This document shows, piece after piece, positions 15,169-26,248 of a stretch of DNA of 36,065 bases. The translations under genes and the position numbers were made by a program. Below the pieces are notes generated by a model. That model was not told the DNA's origin. It did no database searches and saw nothing but the letters and a program-made list of their open reading frames with translations. The stretch is from contig SYGQ01000196.1 of assembly GCA_005799475.1 (NCBI GenBank), positions 1 through 36,065 on the forward strand. Reading direction: 5' to 3'. Source of the stretch: Planctomycetia bacterium. Its GTDB lineage: Bacteria > Planctomycetota > Phycisphaerae > Phycisphaerales > SM1A02. Within the stretch, counting starts at the first letter, position 1. Each line of letters begins with the position of its first letter.

Positions 15169-18081
15169 GTGGCCAACGAGAGCGCGATGGCGAGGGCGCT
15201 CCGCGAGTGGATCGTCGCGTTGGCGAGCGCGGCGTGCTTCGTGTTGTCCTTTCCCCCGGTGGGTTGGTGGTGGCTTGCGCCGGGCGCTTATGCGGCGATC
15301 ATTCTGCTGGGGTCGGGGAGTCGCCTCGGACTCAACGCCGTCGCCGCGCTCTTCGTCAGCGCCCTTGTGAGTTGGCTCATCCTCGAGGCGTGGCTCACCC
15401 AAGTGGCCGCGCTCGGGTACGCAGTCCTCGCTCCCTTTATGGCCATCTACTGGCCCTTCGCCGCATGGCTCCTCCGACGGTGCCGCGCGAGTGCGATCGG
15501 GTCAAGGCTTCCCGTGTGTGTGCTCGCGCCGGTCGTCCTCGTCGCGGTCGAGTGGCTGCGGGGCACGGTCGTGATGGACGGGTACCCGTGGTTCATGATC
15601 GGCCACCCGTTGATCGACACGCCGTGGGCGCAGCTTGCCGATCTCGGAGGCGTACCAGTTGTGACGGCGCTCGTTGTGTTCGTTTGTGCGACCGTGTGCG
15701 AGTTGACCGGATGGTGCGGCAGTGTGCGCCGCGCGGTTTCGCTGGGGGCCCTCGTCGCTGTTCTCGGCGGCGCGTGGTGTTACGGATCGTGGCGAATCGG
15801 TGAGCGCGCGGTGCATCGAACTCTGGGGCCGGCGATCCTTGCCTACCAGACCAACCTGCCAGTGAGCAATGTCGCGCCGTGGCCGCGCGAGAGGCAGGAG
15901 AGTGATGTGGCGGATTTCGCGCGGGGGACACTTGGTGCGTGGCGAGACCTCGCCGATCGAGACATTCGCGTCGACCTCATTGTGTGGCCGGAAACGATTC
16001 TCCCGGGATTCGGGCTCGAGGAACCGACGCTCGCCACACTGCGCGACGGCGCGTGGTGGCCAGGTGATCGATTCGCGAGGATCCCGGCCGCGATCGTGCA
16101 GGCCACGGGGGCGCCGATGCTCGTCGGGAGCCCCGTCTATCTCGGACTCGCCCCATCGGGTGATCGGTGGTCGTGGACGGCGCACTACAACAGCGCCTAC
16201 CTCGTCGATCCCTCGGGATCGCGGCAGCGATACGACAAGGTCTTCCTGACGCCCTTCGGCGAACGAATGCCCTACATCTCCGCGTGGCCGTGGCTCGAGT
16301 CGAAACTGCTCACGGTGAGCGCGGTCGGCATGTCATTCGACCTCGACGAGGGCCACGCCGCGGCCCCTCTTGCGCTCGAGTGGGGGCCGCCTTCGGCGCG
16401 CGAGACCTGCCAGATCGCGACACCGATCTGCTTCGAGGACACGGTGGCGCGTGTGGTGCGGCGGATGGTGTACGCCGACAATGGCGTCAAGCGTGCCGGG
16501 CTCATCGTGAATCTCTCGAACGATGGATGGTTCGGCGACAGCGACGCGGGTCGTGCGCACCATGAGCTCATGGCGCGGTGGCGCTGCATCGAACTCAGGG
16601 TGCCGATGGTGCGCACGGCGAACACCGGGATCAGCGGCGCATACGACAGTTGCGGCGCGCCCATCGCGGGCGCAGTCCTCCCGTCGCGCAAGACCGGAAG
16701 CCTGCTCGCACAATGCGACTTCGACGATGCGTCCACTGTGTATGGCAAATGGGGAGAGGTACTATCGCCAGCGATGTGTGTGATCGCGTTGATGCTCGCC
16801 TTCGCGCCCCGCGCTCGTCGCGCGCTCGCTGGGGTGGCGTCCGCAGCACTCGCGCTCACGGTGCTCCTGACGATCCCCTCGTGCTCGGGCGACGGTCGCG
16901 GCTTCGCGCCGGTGCCAGACGGCACATGGAGTTCGCGCACCACCGCGCCGGATCCGAGTCTGATCCGATCGGCGGCCCCGACGACTGGACCTGCCGTCAC
17001 CGCGATTCCTTCGAAGCCCATCACGCCCCCGGTGGCGGTCGAAGCCGCTTCCGCGCCACCGGCGGCCCCGGTTCTTGAGTCGCCAGAGATTTCCGATCCG
17101 GTCGCTGCAGTCGCTCCTGCAGTCGACCCGACGGTCTCCTCGCCAACCCCGACAGAGGCGCCGTCCGCGGGCGCGCCCAGTTCGCGCGCGCAAAGCATCG
17201 TCGTCGCCGCATCCTCGAGTGATCAGCCGATCTACAGGGCCCACGCGATCGAGGGCCTCGAGTACTGCGCGCCCGAAGTCATTGAAGCCGTCGCGCGCCG
17301 CCTCCTCGTCGACCCCAACGAGGGCGTGCGCTTCGCCGCCGCTGTCGTCGTGGGGAAGCGCCGTCTCGTCGCCTGCGCGGAGCTGGTGGAGCCGCTGGTC
17401 CATGACCCCAACGACTCAGTGCGCGCTGCGGCGCTCTACGCGCTTGTGTGTTTGGGCCGCATCGTCGACCTCTCGCCGCTTGCCCAGTTGGCCATGAGCG
17501 AAGATGCGCAGACTCGGTCGAATGCGTTTTTTGTCCTCGGCGAGTTGGGCAATCCAAGCGCGATCGCGCTCGTCGAGAGCGTCGTCGGTCGGCGCCTCGA
17601 CAACGCGAACCCCGAACGGCTCCGAATCGTGGACCTCCAAGCGGCCGAGTCCATGGCGAAGATGGGCGACTACCGCCAATACGACCCCATCCGCGCCGCG
17701 CTGTATGCGCCGAGCGAGCAGAGCGAGATCGTTGCACTCGCGTGCCAGATGGTCGGGGAGGCCCAGGATCGCGCGGCGCGACCGCACCTGATCGGGATTT
17801 GGAACAGCAAGGGCCCCACCGAGCGGCCCATCGAAGTGCGCCTGATCGCGGGTGCATCGCTCGCACGAATCGGAGAGCCCAATCTTGAACCGATTCTTCA
17901 GGTGGCGTCTGCGGCGACGAAGGATCCGTCGCCAGCAATCCGGGCGCAGGCTGCGGCAACGCTTGGTTGGGTCAGGGGCGAGCGGGCGACTGCGGTCCTC
18001 ATGCCCCTCTTGGACGATCCGGTGCCGATGGTTCGTCTCACTGCCGCCGTCGCCTGCCTTCGCGCGGCTGGATCCTCCTGA
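15169..18081 (+). CDS. lnt: Apolipoprotein N-acyltransferase fused to a C-terminal HEAT-repeat region
   Basis: 970 aa. N-terminal TM segments; nitrilase-fold residues LIVWPETILPG (Glu), QRYDKVFLTPFGERMP (Lys), ICFEDT (Cys), LIVNLSNDGWFGDS. Then VASAALALTVLLTIPSCSGDGRG, a Pro/Ala/Ser-rich linker and HEAT-like repeats (DPNEGVRFAAAVVVGKRR, DPNDSVRAAALYALVCLG, SPAIRAQAAATLGWVRG). Confidence 0.93.
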   Translation: MANESAMARALREWIVALASAACFVLSFPPVGWWWLAPGAYAAIILLGSGSRLGLNAVAALFVSALVSWLILEAWLTQVAALGYAVLAPFMAIYWPFAAWLLRRCRASAIGSRLPVCVLAPVVLVAVEWLRGTVVMDGYPWFMIGHPLIDTPWAQLADLGGVPVVTALVVFVCATVCELTGWCGSVRRAVSLGALVAVLGGAWCYGSWRIGERAVHRTLGPAILAYQTNLPVSNVAPWPRERQESDVADFARGTLGAWRDLADRDIRVDLIVWPETILPGFGLEEPTLATLRDGAWWPGDRFARIPAAIVQATGAPMLVGSPVYLGLAPSGDRWSWTAHYNSAYLVDPSGSRQRYDKVFLTPFGERMPYISAWPWLESKLLTVSAVGMSFDLDEGHAAAPLALEWGPPSARETCQIATPICFEDTVARVVRRMVYADNGVKRAGLIVNLSNDGWFGDSDAGRAHHELMARWRCIELRVPMVRTANTGISGAYDSCGAPIAGAVLPSRKTGSLLAQCDFDDASTVYGKWGEVLSPAMCVIALMLAFAPRARRALAGVASAALALTVLLTIPSCSGDGRGFAPVPDGTWSSRTTAPDPSLIRSAAPTTGPAVTAIPSKPITPPVAVEAASAPPAAPVLESPEISDPVAAVAPAVDPTVSSPTPTEAPSAGAPSSRAQSIVVAASSSDQPIYRAHAIEGLEYCAPEVIEAVARRLLVDPNEGVRFAAAVVVGKRRLVACAELVEPLVHDPNDSVRAAALYALVCLGRIVDLSPLAQLAMSEDAQTRSNAFFVLGELGNPSAIALVESVVGRRLDNANPERLRIVDLQAAESMAKMGDYRQYDPIRAALYAPSEQSEIVALACQMVGEAQDRAARPHLIGIWNSKGPTERPIEVRLIAGASLARIGEPNLEPILQVASAATKDPSPAIRAQAAATLGWVRGERATAVLMPLLDDPVPMVRLTAAVACLRAAGSS

Positions 18082-18132: not shown

Positions 18133-18214
18133 ACCCCGCTCGAGCGCACCGACTGGGTTGGATCCAGTGCCAGCGGATTGCGTAGGTTCGGCTGTCCCAT
18201 TTCTCAGGTCCACA

Positions 18215-19111
18215 GTGCACATTCTCACGAAAGTCTTCGTCGTCCTGGTGTCGCTCTTGGCGGTGGCCCTCGTTCCGCTCGCGGCGGTGCAGAGCAGCAA
18301 TCAGTCGGCTCTCAAGCAGCAGGCATCCGACAAGGAGGCTGCGGTGCGTGCCGCCCGTGCCGAACTTGATTCGGAGCGCGCACTCCGCGCGAAGTCTGAG
18401 AACGACACCGCCCTCCAGATCAAGGATCTCGACAGCGAAAAGATCCGACTGCAGAGCGAGCTCGCGCAGGCGGCGACGCGCCTGAAGACGATCGAAGGCG
18501 AGTCCGCGCAAGGCAAGGCGCGACTTGCTCAGTTGGAGCAGACGCTCGCCGTGATGACGGAGACCGATCGAGCGAAGACAGACCTCACGAAGACACTGAG
18601 CGAAGAACTCGATGCCCATCGCAAGCTCGCGCTCGATTGCGAAAAGGTCCGCATCGACATTGAGCAGCGCCTTGGGAAGAGCGACAGCGACCTCCGCGTC
18701 GCGCAAGAAGCCCTCGCCGACCTCAAGGAGCAAGTCAGCAGTCTCGCTGCCGAGAAGACGAAGTCCGATCAGGTCGTGCGCGACTACACGGCGAAGTTTG
18801 GTCAGGCTCCGAGCGACGAGTCCGCCGCAGCCGGCTCGGCCTCCTCGGTGGCTGACCGAAACCTCTCTGCGAGGGTGACTGATGTACGAAGGACAGACAC
18901 TGAGACCTATGCGGAGATCGACGCGGGAAGCCGCGACGGCGTGAAGGTCGGATGGTTGCTCACCATCGGCGATGGGTCACGCTTCATCGGAAAGCTACGG
19001 ATCACCTCTGTCGACATGAATTCGTCGGTCGGGATCGTTGAACTTGAGGACGCAGCGAGTCGCGGACCTGTCAGCGCTGGGCAGCGCGTCACCGCGCGCA
19101 AGGGTCAGTAA
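18215..19111 (+). CDS. Membrane-anchored coiled-coil protein with MreC-like organisation
   Basis: N-terminal TM (VFVVLVSLLAVALVPLAAV), long heptad-like charged region, then C-terminal DVRRTDTETYAEIDAGSRDGVKVGWLLTIGDGSRFIGKLRITSVDMNSSVGIVEL. GTG 18215 as start. Confidence 0.8.
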   Translation: MHILTKVFVVLVSLLAVALVPLAAVQSSNQSALKQQASDKEAAVRAARAELDSERALRAKSENDTALQIKDLDSEKIRLQSELAQAATRLKTIEGESAQGKARLAQLEQTLAVMTETDRAKTDLTKTLSEELDAHRKLALDCEKVRIDIEQRLGKSDSDLRVAQEALADLKEQVSSLAAEKTKSDQVVRDYTAKFGQAPSDESAAAGSASSVADRNLSARVTDVRRTDTETYAEIDAGSRDGVKVGWLLTIGDGSRFIGKLRITSVDMNSSVGIVELEDAASRGPVSAGQRVTARKGQ

Positions 19112-22043: not shown

Positions 22044-23291
22044 ATGGACCGCGCGGCCACGGTGGTTGCCCTCTTTGACGATGGCCGCTCAAGGTTTGGT
22101 CCACTGTGCGATCTCCGCGCGACCTTCGAACAGCGGCTCGGCGTGCTGTCGTGCGTCGAGCGGGCGCATCTCGTGCTCGGGAGAGTCGACGCTCTGTATC
22201 CGCCCGACTACCTCTTGGCGCTTCTCACCGAGCGGCATGCGAACTCGTCGATCAAGGTCGGCGCGTTGCCCGCCGATGCAGCCGAGGTGGTTCTCATCAA
22301 CGGCGCGCTCGACTGTCTCGACGACGCGGTGTCGCTGAGCTTCGGCGAGGTGATGGTCTCGGCAGATGGCGCGGTTGCGATGGCGCGGCTCTCTCGCGCG
22401 GATGCCGTGCGAGCGCTCGAGCGAGGGGTGTCGCTCGATCACTTGCCGTCCAAGGTCGTCAAGCGCCCGCTCTCGTCGGGACAGGTCGTGCGGGCGCCGT
22501 GGCAACTGCTTGAACGGCTCGGCACTTCCATCGCCGCAGACATCACGACCATCGCGCGCTCGGGCGAGATGACGGATCGAAGCGTGCATGGGCTCCACCG
22601 CTTCGGCCATGGTCCGCTGCTCATGGATCCCACAGCGAAAGTCCTCCCTGGGGCGGTGATCGACACGACCGATGGGGCGGTGCTCGTTGGTCCTGGAGTT
22701 GTCATCCGTCCCGGCGCCGTCGTGTGCGGGCCCTGCGCACTCTTGCACCATGCCACCATCATCGATCGTGCACTCATCAAGGCCCGCTCGGTGATCGGGC
22801 CGTGGTGCAAGGCCGGCGGTGAGGTTGGTTCTTGCGTGTTTCAGGCGTACTCGAACAAGGCGCACGACGGCCACTTGGGCGACGCACTCGTAGGCGAGTG
22901 GGTCAACATCGGTGCCGGTGCCTGCAACTCAAACCTGCTCAACACCTACGGCGATGTCGCGACGCGTCTCGACGCGTCCGGAAGCATGGAGCGCACGGGA
23001 CGGCAGTTCTACGGCGGGATCATCGGCGACCACGCCAAGGTCGGCATCCTCGTCGCGCTCACCACCGGCTCCACAATCGGGACCGGCGCCATGATCGCCC
23101 ACTCGCGGCCCCCGGCGTTCGTCGAACGATTCGCGTGGCTCACATCGGAGCGTTCCCAGTCGTATCGGTTTGATCGGTTCGCCGCGGCCATCACATCCAT
23201 GATGTCACGCCGAGAACTTGCACCCGGCCGTGCCTACCTCGACCGGCTACGGGCGCTGCACGGCGCTCACTTCCACCCCATCGGCGCGTGA
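22044..23291 (+). CDS. GlmU-family putative sugar nucleotidyltransferase / left-handed beta-helix acyltransferase-like protein
   Basis: N-terminus FDDGRSRFGPLCDLRATFEQRLGVLSCVER resembles the putative sugar nucleotidyl transferase (alternative bacterial GlmU) family; C-terminal hexapeptide-like repeats (GAVIDTTDGAVLVGPGVVIRPGAVVCGPCALLHHATI). Confidence 0.85.
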   Translation: MDRAATVVALFDDGRSRFGPLCDLRATFEQRLGVLSCVERAHLVLGRVDALYPPDYLLALLTERHANSSIKVGALPADAAEVVLINGALDCLDDAVSLSFGEVMVSADGAVAMARLSRADAVRALERGVSLDHLPSKVVKRPLSSGQVVRAPWQLLERLGTSIAADITTIARSGEMTDRSVHGLHRFGHGPLLMDPTAKVLPGAVIDTTDGAVLVGPGVVIRPGAVVCGPCALLHHATIIDRALIKARSVIGPWCKAGGEVGSCVFQAYSNKAHDGHLGDALVGEWVNIGAGACNSNLLNTYGDVATRLDASGSMERTGRQFYGGIIGDHAKVGILVALTTGSTIGTGAMIAHSRPPAFVERFAWLTSERSQSYRFDRFAAAITSMMSRRELAPGRAYLDRLRALHGAHFHPIGA

Positions 23292-26248
23292 GCGTGGGGG
23301 CGCCCATCCATGAGGCACTTGCCCGCGCGGTCCGCGGGGATGTCCGCATGGGTCGCCACGATCGGATGCTCTACGCCACCGACGCGAGCATCTATCAAGT
23401 CGAACCCCTCGGCGTCGTCATTCCCGCCGATGTGGACGATGCCGAGGCAGCGGCCCGTGCGTGCTTCCTCACGGGAACGCCCGTGGTGCCCCGAGGTGCG
23501 GGCACCGCGCTCGCCGGGCAGACCGTCAACCGCGGGGTCGTGATCGACCTCAGCGCCAACTGCCGCGCCATTGCTTCGATCGATGTTGCCGCGCGGCGCG
23601 TGCGCGTCGAGCCCGGCGTCGTGCTCGACCAACTCAACGGGGCGCTCGCCAAGCACGGGCTCGCCTTTGGCCCCGATGTCGCGACCGCATCGCACGCCAC
23701 GCTCGGTGGGATGATCGGCAACAACTCGGCAGGGGCGAACTCCGTGCTCTACGGGCGCACGGTTGAGCATGTGGTCGCCATCGACGCGCTCCTCTCCAGC
23801 GGCGAGCGGTTGCGATTCGACGAAGGGGCTGCCCTGCGAAGCGAGCGAGTACGCGAGATCACCGCAGCACTGGCCGAGATCGTCCTCCCGCTCGCGCCGC
23901 TCATCGATGAGCGGTTTCCAAAGATCCTTCGGCATGTCGACGGCTACAACCTCGACATCCTGCTCACCCAATTGCGCGCCTCAACACCGGGCACATTCGA
24001 CCGGGTGAATCTCGCGCACCTCCTGTGTGGCTCTGAGGGGACGCTCGCGATCACGCTCGGGGCGGACCTGGCCCTCGTGGATCGTCCCACGCACAAGGGG
24101 CTCGCCATCGCTGCCTTCGCGTCGGTGCGAGACGCCCTTGAGCCGCTCACTCGCATTTTGGCCACGGGGCCAAGCGCCGTTGAGCTCGTGGACGACATGG
24201 TGATCACCATGGCGCGCCGGAATCGCGCGCTCGCCCACGATGTTGATGTGCTTCCACAGCCGAGCGCAGGCAGCCTCGGTGCGGTGATTTATGTGCAGTA
24301 CTTCGCGGATTCTGCCGCCGAACTCGCCACGAAACTCGATGGGCTCGCGAGCACTCTGCCGGGGGTCATGCTCGTGCGGCACACGGATCCTGCTTCTATG
24401 GAACGGGCGTGGCGGCTCCGAAAGGCGGGCGAACCGCTTCTGCACGGCATCCCGGGGGCCCGCAAGCCAGTCACCTTTGTCGAGGACACGGCGGTCGATC
24501 CAGCGCACCTCAGCGCGTTCGTCGAGGAGTTTCGGGCCATCGTCGAGCGACATGGCACGACGGCCGCGTACTACGCACATGCGTCTGTGGGATGCCTCCA
24601 TATCCGCCCGCTCATCGCACTGGAAGACGAGCACGACCTCGCAAGGATGCGCGCGATCGCCGTCGAGGTCGCCGATCTCGTCGTCAAGTACAAGGGTGCG
24701 CTCAGCGGCGAGCACGGTGACGGCAGGGTGCGCTCGCCCATGCTCAGCCTGGTCCTCGGTCCCGACCTTGCGAAGGCACTCGGGCGCATCAAGCGAGTGT
24801 TCGATCCCTCCGGTCTCCTCAACCCGGGCAATCTCGTCGACAACGATCGGCCCGACGCGATCACCTCTCGGCTGCGTGTCAGGCCCGATGACGCACGATT
24901 CGTGCACGCGCCGACCGCGCCGACCTACTACTCGTACGAGCGCGAGGGGGGACTCGACCATGCCATCACGGGGTGCAACGGTGCTGGGCTCTGCCGGCGC
25001 CTCACTGATGGCGGGACCATGTGCCCATCGTTCCGGGCGCTCCGCGACGAACGGCACACCACACGCGGTCGCGCCAACGCGCTCCGTCTCGCGATCTCCG
25101 GGCAACTCTCGCGGACCCCGTGGCACGATGAGGAGACCGCGCGCACGCTTGCACTTTGCCTTTCGTGCAAGGCGTGCAAGTCTGAGTGCCCGAGCAATGT
25201 CGATCTCGCGAAGTTGAAGGCGGAGTTCACCGCACAGGGGTTCAATGAGCGTGGTGCAGTGCCCTGGCGGGTCCGCTTGCGCAGCGCGGTGCGTGGACTC
25301 TCGCGCACCGCGTCCGCGGCATGGCCGCTGAGCGCATGGCTCTCACGGTGGGGTCCTACGCGCCAACTCATCGCGCACACGCTGGGGTTTTCGTCGACGC
25401 GATCGCTGCCCGCCATCGGGCCGCCGCTGCGGCGCTGGCTCCAGCATCACCGTCGGGAGTCGCTGCGCCGTCGGGGACCTGAGTCGCTGCACGACCGGCC
25501 TTGCGTCGTCCTCTTCGGGGACTGCTTCACGCAGTGGTCCGAGCCCGCAGTCGGCGCCGCCGCAGTGACAGTCCTCGAGGCATTTGGATACCGGGTCGTG
25601 CTCTTCGAGTCGGGCTGTTGCGCTCGAGGAGCAATTTCATGCGGCCATCTCGCCGATGCGGCGCGAACGGTTGCCGCAACCGCGCAGGGACTCGAGGCGC
25701 TCGTCGCCCGTGTGAGCGCCGTCGCTGTGCTCTGCCTTGAGCCCTCGTGCTTGAGTGCACTCAAAGATGACTGGCTCGAATTGCGCAGCGGGATTGCCCC
25801 CGAGAGGCTTCGGGCGATCAGCCAGAGGGCGCACCTCGTGGAGGACTGGATCGACCGCGAGTGGGATCGTCATCCAACGCGTCCGTCCCTTTCGCATCCA
25901 GAGGAACGAGTGGTCTTTCACGCGCACTGCCACCAGAAGGCGCTCTGGGGATCCGAGACATCGTCGCGACTCCTTGCTCGGATCTTTGGCGATCGGCTCG
26001 AGGTGCTCGCGACCGGGTGCTGTGGCATGGCGGGAGCGTTCGGACTCGACGCATCGACGAGCGACCTCAGCGTGACGATCGCTCAGATGGACCTCCTTCC
26101 GAAGTTGGCTCGTGATGCCCGCGCGATCGTCTGCGCATCGGGGACGAGTTGCCGGCATCAGATTCACGACACGGTGAGCCGACGGGCGTTCCACCCGATC
26201 GAGCTCGTGGCGAGCGCGATCATGGATCGCGACCCCGTGACCGGATGA
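23288..26248 (+). CDS. FAD-binding and Fe-S-binding oxidoreductase (D-lactate/D-2-hydroxyacid dehydrogenase-like) with CCG domain
   Basis: FAD_binding_4 motif VVPRGAGTALAGQTVNRGVVIDL, GGMIGNNSAGANSVLYGRT; ferredoxin-like CLSCKACKSECP; CCG-type ESGCCARG and HCHQKALWG...ATGCCGMAGAFG. Confidence 0.95.
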   Translation: MSVGAPIHEALARAVRGDVRMGRHDRMLYATDASIYQVEPLGVVIPADVDDAEAAARACFLTGTPVVPRGAGTALAGQTVNRGVVIDLSANCRAIASIDVAARRVRVEPGVVLDQLNGALAKHGLAFGPDVATASHATLGGMIGNNSAGANSVLYGRTVEHVVAIDALLSSGERLRFDEGAALRSERVREITAALAEIVLPLAPLIDERFPKILRHVDGYNLDILLTQLRASTPGTFDRVNLAHLLCGSEGTLAITLGADLALVDRPTHKGLAIAAFASVRDALEPLTRILATGPSAVELVDDMVITMARRNRALAHDVDVLPQPSAGSLGAVIYVQYFADSAAELATKLDGLASTLPGVMLVRHTDPASMERAWRLRKAGEPLLHGIPGARKPVTFVEDTAVDPAHLSAFVEEFRAIVERHGTTAAYYAHASVGCLHIRPLIALEDEHDLARMRAIAVEVADLVVKYKGALSGEHGDGRVRSPMLSLVLGPDLAKALGRIKRVFDPSGLLNPGNLVDNDRPDAITSRLRVRPDDARFVHAPTAPTYYSYEREGGLDHAITGCNGAGLCRRLTDGGTMCPSFRALRDERHTTRGRANALRLAISGQLSRTPWHDEETARTLALCLSCKACKSECPSNVDLAKLKAEFTAQGFNERGAVPWRVRLRSAVRGLSRTASAAWPLSAWLSRWGPTRQLIAHTLGFSSTRSLPAIGPPLRRWLQHHRRESLRRRGPESLHDRPCVVLFGDCFTQWSEPAVGAAAVTVLEAFGYRVVLFESGCCARGAISCGHLADAARTVAATAQGLEALVARVSAVAVLCLEPSCLSALKDDWLELRSGIAPERLRAISQRAHLVEDWIDREWDRHPTRPSLSHPEERVVFHAHCHQKALWGSETSSRLLARIFGDRLEVLATGCCGMAGAFGLDASTSDLSVTIAQMDLLPKLARDARAIVCASGTSCRHQIHDTVSRRAFHPIELVASAIMDRDPVTG

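Follow-up and report, generated by a model that had tools for sequence, protein, structure and literature searches.

Gene fusions are usually taken as permanent protein partnerships. In mycobacteria, one ORF joins the lipoprotein N-acyltransferase Lnt to a neighbour encoded separately in relatives (Lnt-Ppm1; Rv2051c / BCG_2070c). The partner is a Ppm-like (polyprenol-monophosphomannose synthase) domain, and the excerpt of that report speaks neither of an internal signal peptide or lipobox nor of a nested start (PMC3850990). OpuABC-type chimeric ABC transporters attach an extracytoplasmic domain to a polytopic membrane partner via a signal-anchor segment, which is drawn as a permanent anchor (PMC2861598). 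Embedded and overlapped spanin genes (lambda Rz/Rz1, P2) place a lipoprotein gene within or across a membrane-protein gene, the lipoprotein frame being shifted by +1 or -1 (PMC6139136). Leaderless genes of Actinobacteria and Deinococcus-Thermus, finally, carry a TANNNT box close to their start (PMC3160421, PMC12340547).

The planctomycete locus described here, found in a window of 36,065 nucleotides (the whole stretch of DNA that was analysed), has likenesses to each of these and departs from each. Its Lnt is likewise joined with a neighbour, which here is a HEAT-repeat lipoprotein; unlike the OpuABC segment, the joining segment strictly keeps a lipobox cysteine; and in contrast to the spanins the overlap is in frame, the upstream gene having lost its stop. 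The box and its position are those of known leaderless genes, but the putative promoter sits within another gene's coding region, in frame with it. The Lnt part shares its fold with the E. coli and P. aeruginosa enzymes, which have neither the HEAT domain nor the extra helix of the joined protein. Literature searches returned no report of an Lnt-HEAT fusion, of an internal LspA site, or of LspA cutting at a signal placed after eight membrane helices.

The joined lnt-HEAT reading frame and its relatives

The joined frame opens with a GTG that directly abuts the accD stop on the + strand, and has the following layout.

15169..18081, + strand: joined lnt-HEAT ORF, 970 codons and 970 aa, GTG start, TGA stop, open throughout
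15226..15690, + strand: LNT_N membrane domain, N-terminal part of Lnt, residues 20-174 (Pfam)
15952..16731, + strand: nitrilase-like catalytic domain of Lnt (CN_hydrolase), residues 262-521 (Pfam, NCBIfam, Lnt structure alignment)
15991-15993, 16237-16239 and 16429-16431, + strand: candidate catalytic residues E275, K357 and C421
16756..16806, + strand: last Lnt transmembrane helix, residues 530-546, placed from the Lnt fold (AF2 helices 524-528 and 532-544)
16759-16761, + strand: rare Val codon GTA (Val531), holding the -10 box
16760-16765, + strand: putative internal -10 box TACTAT (TANNNT followed by C), recognised from GTA codon bias, motif counts and the genus promoter consensus
16774..18081, + strand: HEAT lipoprotein gene proposed to be nested here, encoding a precursor of 435 aa; its ATG (M536), leaderless or nearly so, stands 8 nt past the -10 box
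16807..16833, + strand: positively charged loop PRARRALAG, predicted to be cytoplasmic in the full-length protein and to serve as the signal peptide's n-region
16834..16884, + strand: signal-peptide h-region and lipobox I-P-S-Cys572 (Cys codon 16882-16884)
16885..17175, + strand: Pro/Ala/Ser-rich linker, residues 573-669, low pLDDT, with a WSSR motif at 16927-16938
17176..18069, + strand: HEAT-repeat domain, residues 670-967 (Pfam, AF2, fold search)

An earlier note, made from the sequence letters, had described a stop-free frame through a complete Lnt with its Glu/Lys/Cys motifs, and this description holds. The NCBIfam lnt model TIGR00546 gives 210.4 bits, above its cut-off of 132.9, and is matched by all 39 fused members; E275, K357 and C421 do not vary in the alignment of these 39 homologues; and the regions of the lysine and the cysteine align with E. 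coli Lnt. The AF2 model of this part fits onto solved structures of Lnt (E 7.6e-18), Foldseek giving a target TM-score of 0.77 to 8b0p. By family model, catalytic residues and predicted fold, the ORF holds a complete Lnt, for which N-acylation activity would be expected. The further succession that the note had read, from a lipobox-like segment ending at Cys572 through a linker to a HEAT region, is also present, and the structure prediction that it had proposed as a check agrees: AF2 draws a continuous extra helix (549-568) beyond the last Lnt helix, falls below pLDDT 50 over 566-667 (low confidence, read as a disordered linker) and becomes confident from about residue 670, with a pLDDT of 96 in the HEAT domain. 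Pfam HEAT_2 matches three stretches, the best at 887-962 (95.6 bits). The fold search with the HEAT domain was topped by HEAT-like alphaRep structures and returned generic HEAT/ARM and designed repeat proteins only, and so assigns the domain no function. An identity with NCBIfam NF058595, the "lipo-invert" C-terminal anchoring domain, was rejected, as its score in the window (18.3 bits) lies below the cut-off of 37 and the match is weak in 5 of the 39 fused members.

Among relatives, sampled mostly as metagenome assemblies, 118 non-duplicate loci have both parts readable, 39 of them joined and 79 separate. The joined ORFs lie on independent contigs from at least eight genera of one family of lake-dwelling, uncultured planctomycetes and are 35-61% identical to that of the window. 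The earlier note had named, as what would refute it, close relatives that all encode two genes; this does not hold, all 16 fully readable members of the window's genus being joined, and the long Lnt homologues it had suggested looking for carry the counterpart of Cys572 in 39 of 39 cases. Joined loci occur also in genera g2, g6, g16, g18, g43, g47, g57 and g60 of the window's family; the named relatives among them are lake assemblies labelled Phycisphaerales or Planctomycetia. In 55 other members of this family lnt and HEAT are two adjacent genes, as they are in every sampled member of the sister families, and in this arrangement the HEAT gene follows directly 3' of lnt, often overlapping its end. 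Across a class sample of 61 genomes the HEAT gene adjoins lnt in most, always in a separate frame outside the window's family, and no such pairing outside the class was found among the matches listed. Because the genes are separate in these 55 members and in all sampled sister families, the joining is, on this distribution, a derived state. The dN/dS ratio stays below 1 over nearly all the junction, at 0.06-0.7 in the fast-evolving signal segment, with the frame kept.

A single joining event for all fused loci is ruled out by an AU test on a quick tree (p 6e-9). This rejection is owed to one locus of genus g47, L107, and implies at least two joining events; a parsimony count of three was dropped given the AU results. 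With L107 set aside, the remaining fused loci may form one clade (AU p 0.75). L107 itself is an independent joining of lnt and HEAT that kept the lipobox cysteine and has no internal promoter, and it offers a natural control for the route through the long precursor alone.

Wherever the flanks reach, the family keeps the gene order rpe-accD-lnt-HEAT-coiled coil-mreB-mreC, which suggests an envelope role for the HEAT lipoprotein. The gene between HEAT and mreB (window 18158-19111) encodes a coiled-coil protein with no Pfam match; it adjoins the HEAT gene in much of the family, and this neighbourhood is kept more weakly in the order. In another family of the class, f65, no Lnt scores above the family cut-off in six of seven genomes, but the HEAT protein is retained, its gene standing apart from any lnt; in the three loci read (L141:4761-5798 of G261, L142:4219-5412 of G237 and L143:4440-5450 of G254) a lipobox is visible in two. 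This is possibly a natural loss of Lnt, and since f65 retains the HEAT protein without Lnt, the idea that the HEAT protein is an obligatory Lnt cofactor is weakened. Two side observations concern other genes. One genome with an lnt-HEAT pair (G020) also carries a second, divergent Lnt of 27% identity (L064, C44:7051-8529) directly downstream of its LspA gene (C44:8610-9020), and the window holds at 23288-26245 a 986-aa ORF in which FAD-linked oxidase and 4Fe-4S dicluster domains are joined (GlcD/GlcF-like).

The lipobox cysteine and the segment before it

A script found that the separate HEAT proteins of the family begin with Met and an ordinary lipoprotein signal peptide in 53 of 55 cases, with lipoboxes such as LLGGC, LASGC and AATGC; some of those in two sister families carry a plain Sec signal. 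A W-S-S/T-R/K motif after the signal peptide is common to separate and fused HEAT proteins. Since the separate proteins start with a lipoprotein signal peptide and share this motif, the corresponding segment of the window, PRARRALAG-VASAALALTVLLTIPSC572, is by comparison the former signal peptide of a separate HEAT lipoprotein. The earlier note had assigned the lipobox to the acylating enzyme; the relatives identify it as the signal of the neighbouring lipoprotein gene, not that of Lnt.

In the alignment of the 39 fused proteins, Cys572 is the sole invariant column between G529 and A674. Over a fused tree of 13.2 substitutions per site, Fitch counting gives no change in the cysteine column, 4 at position -1 and 14-26 at the other positions. 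The residue at -1 is always G, A or S; the cysteine was located by a rule needing a small residue there, and a rule-free alignment gives the same column. The loop before the hydrophobic segment contains K or R in 39 of 39 (mean 3.0) and is nearly devoid of D and E, while the window's lipobox reads Ile, Pro and Ser at -3, -2 and -1, the Pro at -2 being found in sister species as well. A charged n-region, a hydrophobic h-region and a lipobox with an invariant cysteine, the marks of a type II signal peptide, are thus all present, internally in the full-length ORF and at the N-terminus of the proposed nested product. The contrast between no change at Cys572 and 14-26 at neighbouring columns indicates that a lipidation and cleavage site is under selection, and judged by these counts the segment evolves as a working type II signal peptide does; a relic lipobox is ruled out by the unchanged cysteine. 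The window's genome contains an LspA gene. Lgt was not found in its own assembly (95% complete) but is present in all 18 other members of the genus, and its absence is probably an assembly gap.

A promoter-like motif inside the last Lnt helix

The window segment proposed as a promoter is TACTATCGCCAGCGATG. In the alignment column of Val531, 32 of 32 Val codons are GTA, compared with about 4% of Val codons overall in the fused genes. A strict motif, TANN[AC]TC followed 7-14 nt later by an ATG in frame, occurs among the last-helix codons of lnt in 33 of the 39 fused loci, at a spacing of 7-8 nt in 29 of the 39 and of 11-14 nt in 4; elsewhere in all genes of the fused set the same pattern occurs once. 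Relaxing the hexamer or allowing GTG adds five loci (38 of 39) and leaves L107 alone without it. Under synonymous shuffling the motif is expected in 1-4% per sequence, and in 18% for genus g18, where it is retained in a shifted codon phase; this change of phase points to selection acting on the DNA. At the homologous place in separate genes no motif was found where that place is readable, and TANNNT-ATG stands at the own starts of 2 of 36 separate HEAT genes. A Shine-Dalgarno sequence, in turn, precedes the candidate ATG in 31 of 36 separate genes versus 3 of 32 fused ones, which is about the background of 6%, so an internal start driven by such a sequence was discarded.

The window's genus apparently has many leaderless promoters (L149-L168, G013:C18), of a TANNNT type also described for leaderless genes elsewhere (PMC3160421, PMC12340547). 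In 400 kb of one sister species, TANNNT peaks 6-9 nt before the first ATGs (39 of 247 ORFs) and is near zero before internal ATGs; its maximum, at 6 nt, is 8.1% against 0.1%. The consensus is TA[GC]N[CA]T-C, and no -35 box is conserved among these promoters. This genus-wide peak before first ATGs lends independent support to the reading of the motif as a promoter. Both strands of the window together have five such sites only, one of which stands before the nested frame of 435 aa (start at 16774) and another before a 308-aa gene (29397), and the 8 nt between box and ATG in the window fall within the spacing of about 6-9 nt that marks a leaderless gene. Fused loci thus appear to carry the promoter and the start of the HEAT gene inside the last Lnt helix, and the earlier suggestion of a HEAT lipoprotein start near ATG 16774 gains support from this conserved box just upstream.

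Two proposed routes to one lipoprotein and the alternatives

The explanation that we consider likely is an in-frame nested HEAT lipoprotein gene, with two routes to one lipoprotein and an LspA cut before Cys572 in both. On this account lnt and the HEAT gene, once separate neighbours, would have become one in-frame overlapping locus, and one ORF probably yields two proteins. By the first route, transcripts of the upstream accD-lnt operon would give the 970-aa precursor. Lnt C-termini are cytoplasmic by established topology, so that the charged stretch would form a cytoplasmic loop from which the old signal peptide re-crosses the membrane, leaving the HEAT domain outside. By the second, the -10 promoter in the last-helix codons would give a leaderless mRNA beginning at ATG 16774 and encoding the HEAT lipoprotein precursor only. 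Either product would receive its lipid at Cys572 from Lgt and would probably be cleaved before this residue by LspA, giving an identical mature HEAT lipoprotein. Cleavage of the long product would also free Lnt, which may be active in both forms and, once freed, could N-acylate the HEAT protein made from the same chain. As the HEAT start lies in frame inside lnt, a downstream lnt stop would truncate the lipoprotein, and the joined ORF would therefore persist. The account in which the full-length precursor is cut by LspA, Lnt acylates its own HEAT lipoprotein and the internal leaderless promoter adds extra lipoprotein is plausible, with our judgement leaning slightly against it. Several points sit uneasily with the two-route explanation: some 10 hydrophobic residues from the last Lnt helix would precede the charged region of the nested precursor, an unusual n-region (25-55 aa from Met to Cys); the box lies mostly 8 nt from the start, against a genus optimum of 6; Met536 may be an inherited membrane residue; the independent fusion L107 lacks an internal promoter; in the window, Pro occupies position -2 of the lipobox; and Lgt was not found in the window's assembly.

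An error of assembly, either a frameshift or an overlooked stop in one metagenome, might be thought of in a genome fragmented into 224 contigs, but it is refuted by the 39 homologues, joined on independent contigs at 35-61% identity with purifying selection running across the junction, and we regard it as having next to no chance. It is improbable, though worth keeping in mind, that nothing but the joined protein is made and that LspA cuts it at Cys572, ATG 16774 being no start and the box serving otherwise, for example in transcription of the downstream coiled-coil and mreB genes. Such a polyprotein would accord with the strict selection on Cys572, the purifying selection on the joined frame, the conservation of those downstream genes, and L107, joined with the box absent. 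However, in most genera the box stands 7-8 nt before an in-frame ATG or GTG, the leaderless geometry of the genus, and in most fused lineages the residue at the start site went from the split-type sequence to Met.

Somewhat less probable still is a stable fusion, with HEAT as a permanent periplasmic scaffold on Lnt, the former signal peptide as a ninth helix, and the cysteine either a relic or lipidated without cleavage. A continuous ORF in at least eight genera and the unbroken extra helix of the AF2 model would fit it, and OpuABC offers a precedent for a receptor domain joined to a transporter via a signal-anchor sequence (PMC2861598). A relic cysteine, however, would not be expected to stay unchanged over a tree of 13 substitutions per site while its neighbours vary; -1 is invariably G, A or S; the hydrophobic segment evolves fast, like signal peptides; and in f65 the two come apart, the HEAT protein staying while Lnt is absent from six of seven genomes. 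Of the fusion with a periplasmic scaffold proposed in the earlier note, the joined ORF is therefore real and conserved, whereas permanence is unlikely because the lipobox cysteine is the one invariant residue between 529 and 674 and equals the signal-peptide cysteine of the relatives.

This work brings to light a class-wide lnt-HEAT gene pair and, in its joined form, suggests that an in-frame overlap can mimic a fusion while the signals for expression and for separation both stay under selection. If LspA does cut at an internal signal that eight membrane helices precede, a lipoprotein signal can lie elsewhere than at the N-terminus, and predictors that scan only protein N-termini would overlook such lipoproteins. 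The locus would then be a natural case of an enzyme and one of its substrates arising from a single ORF.
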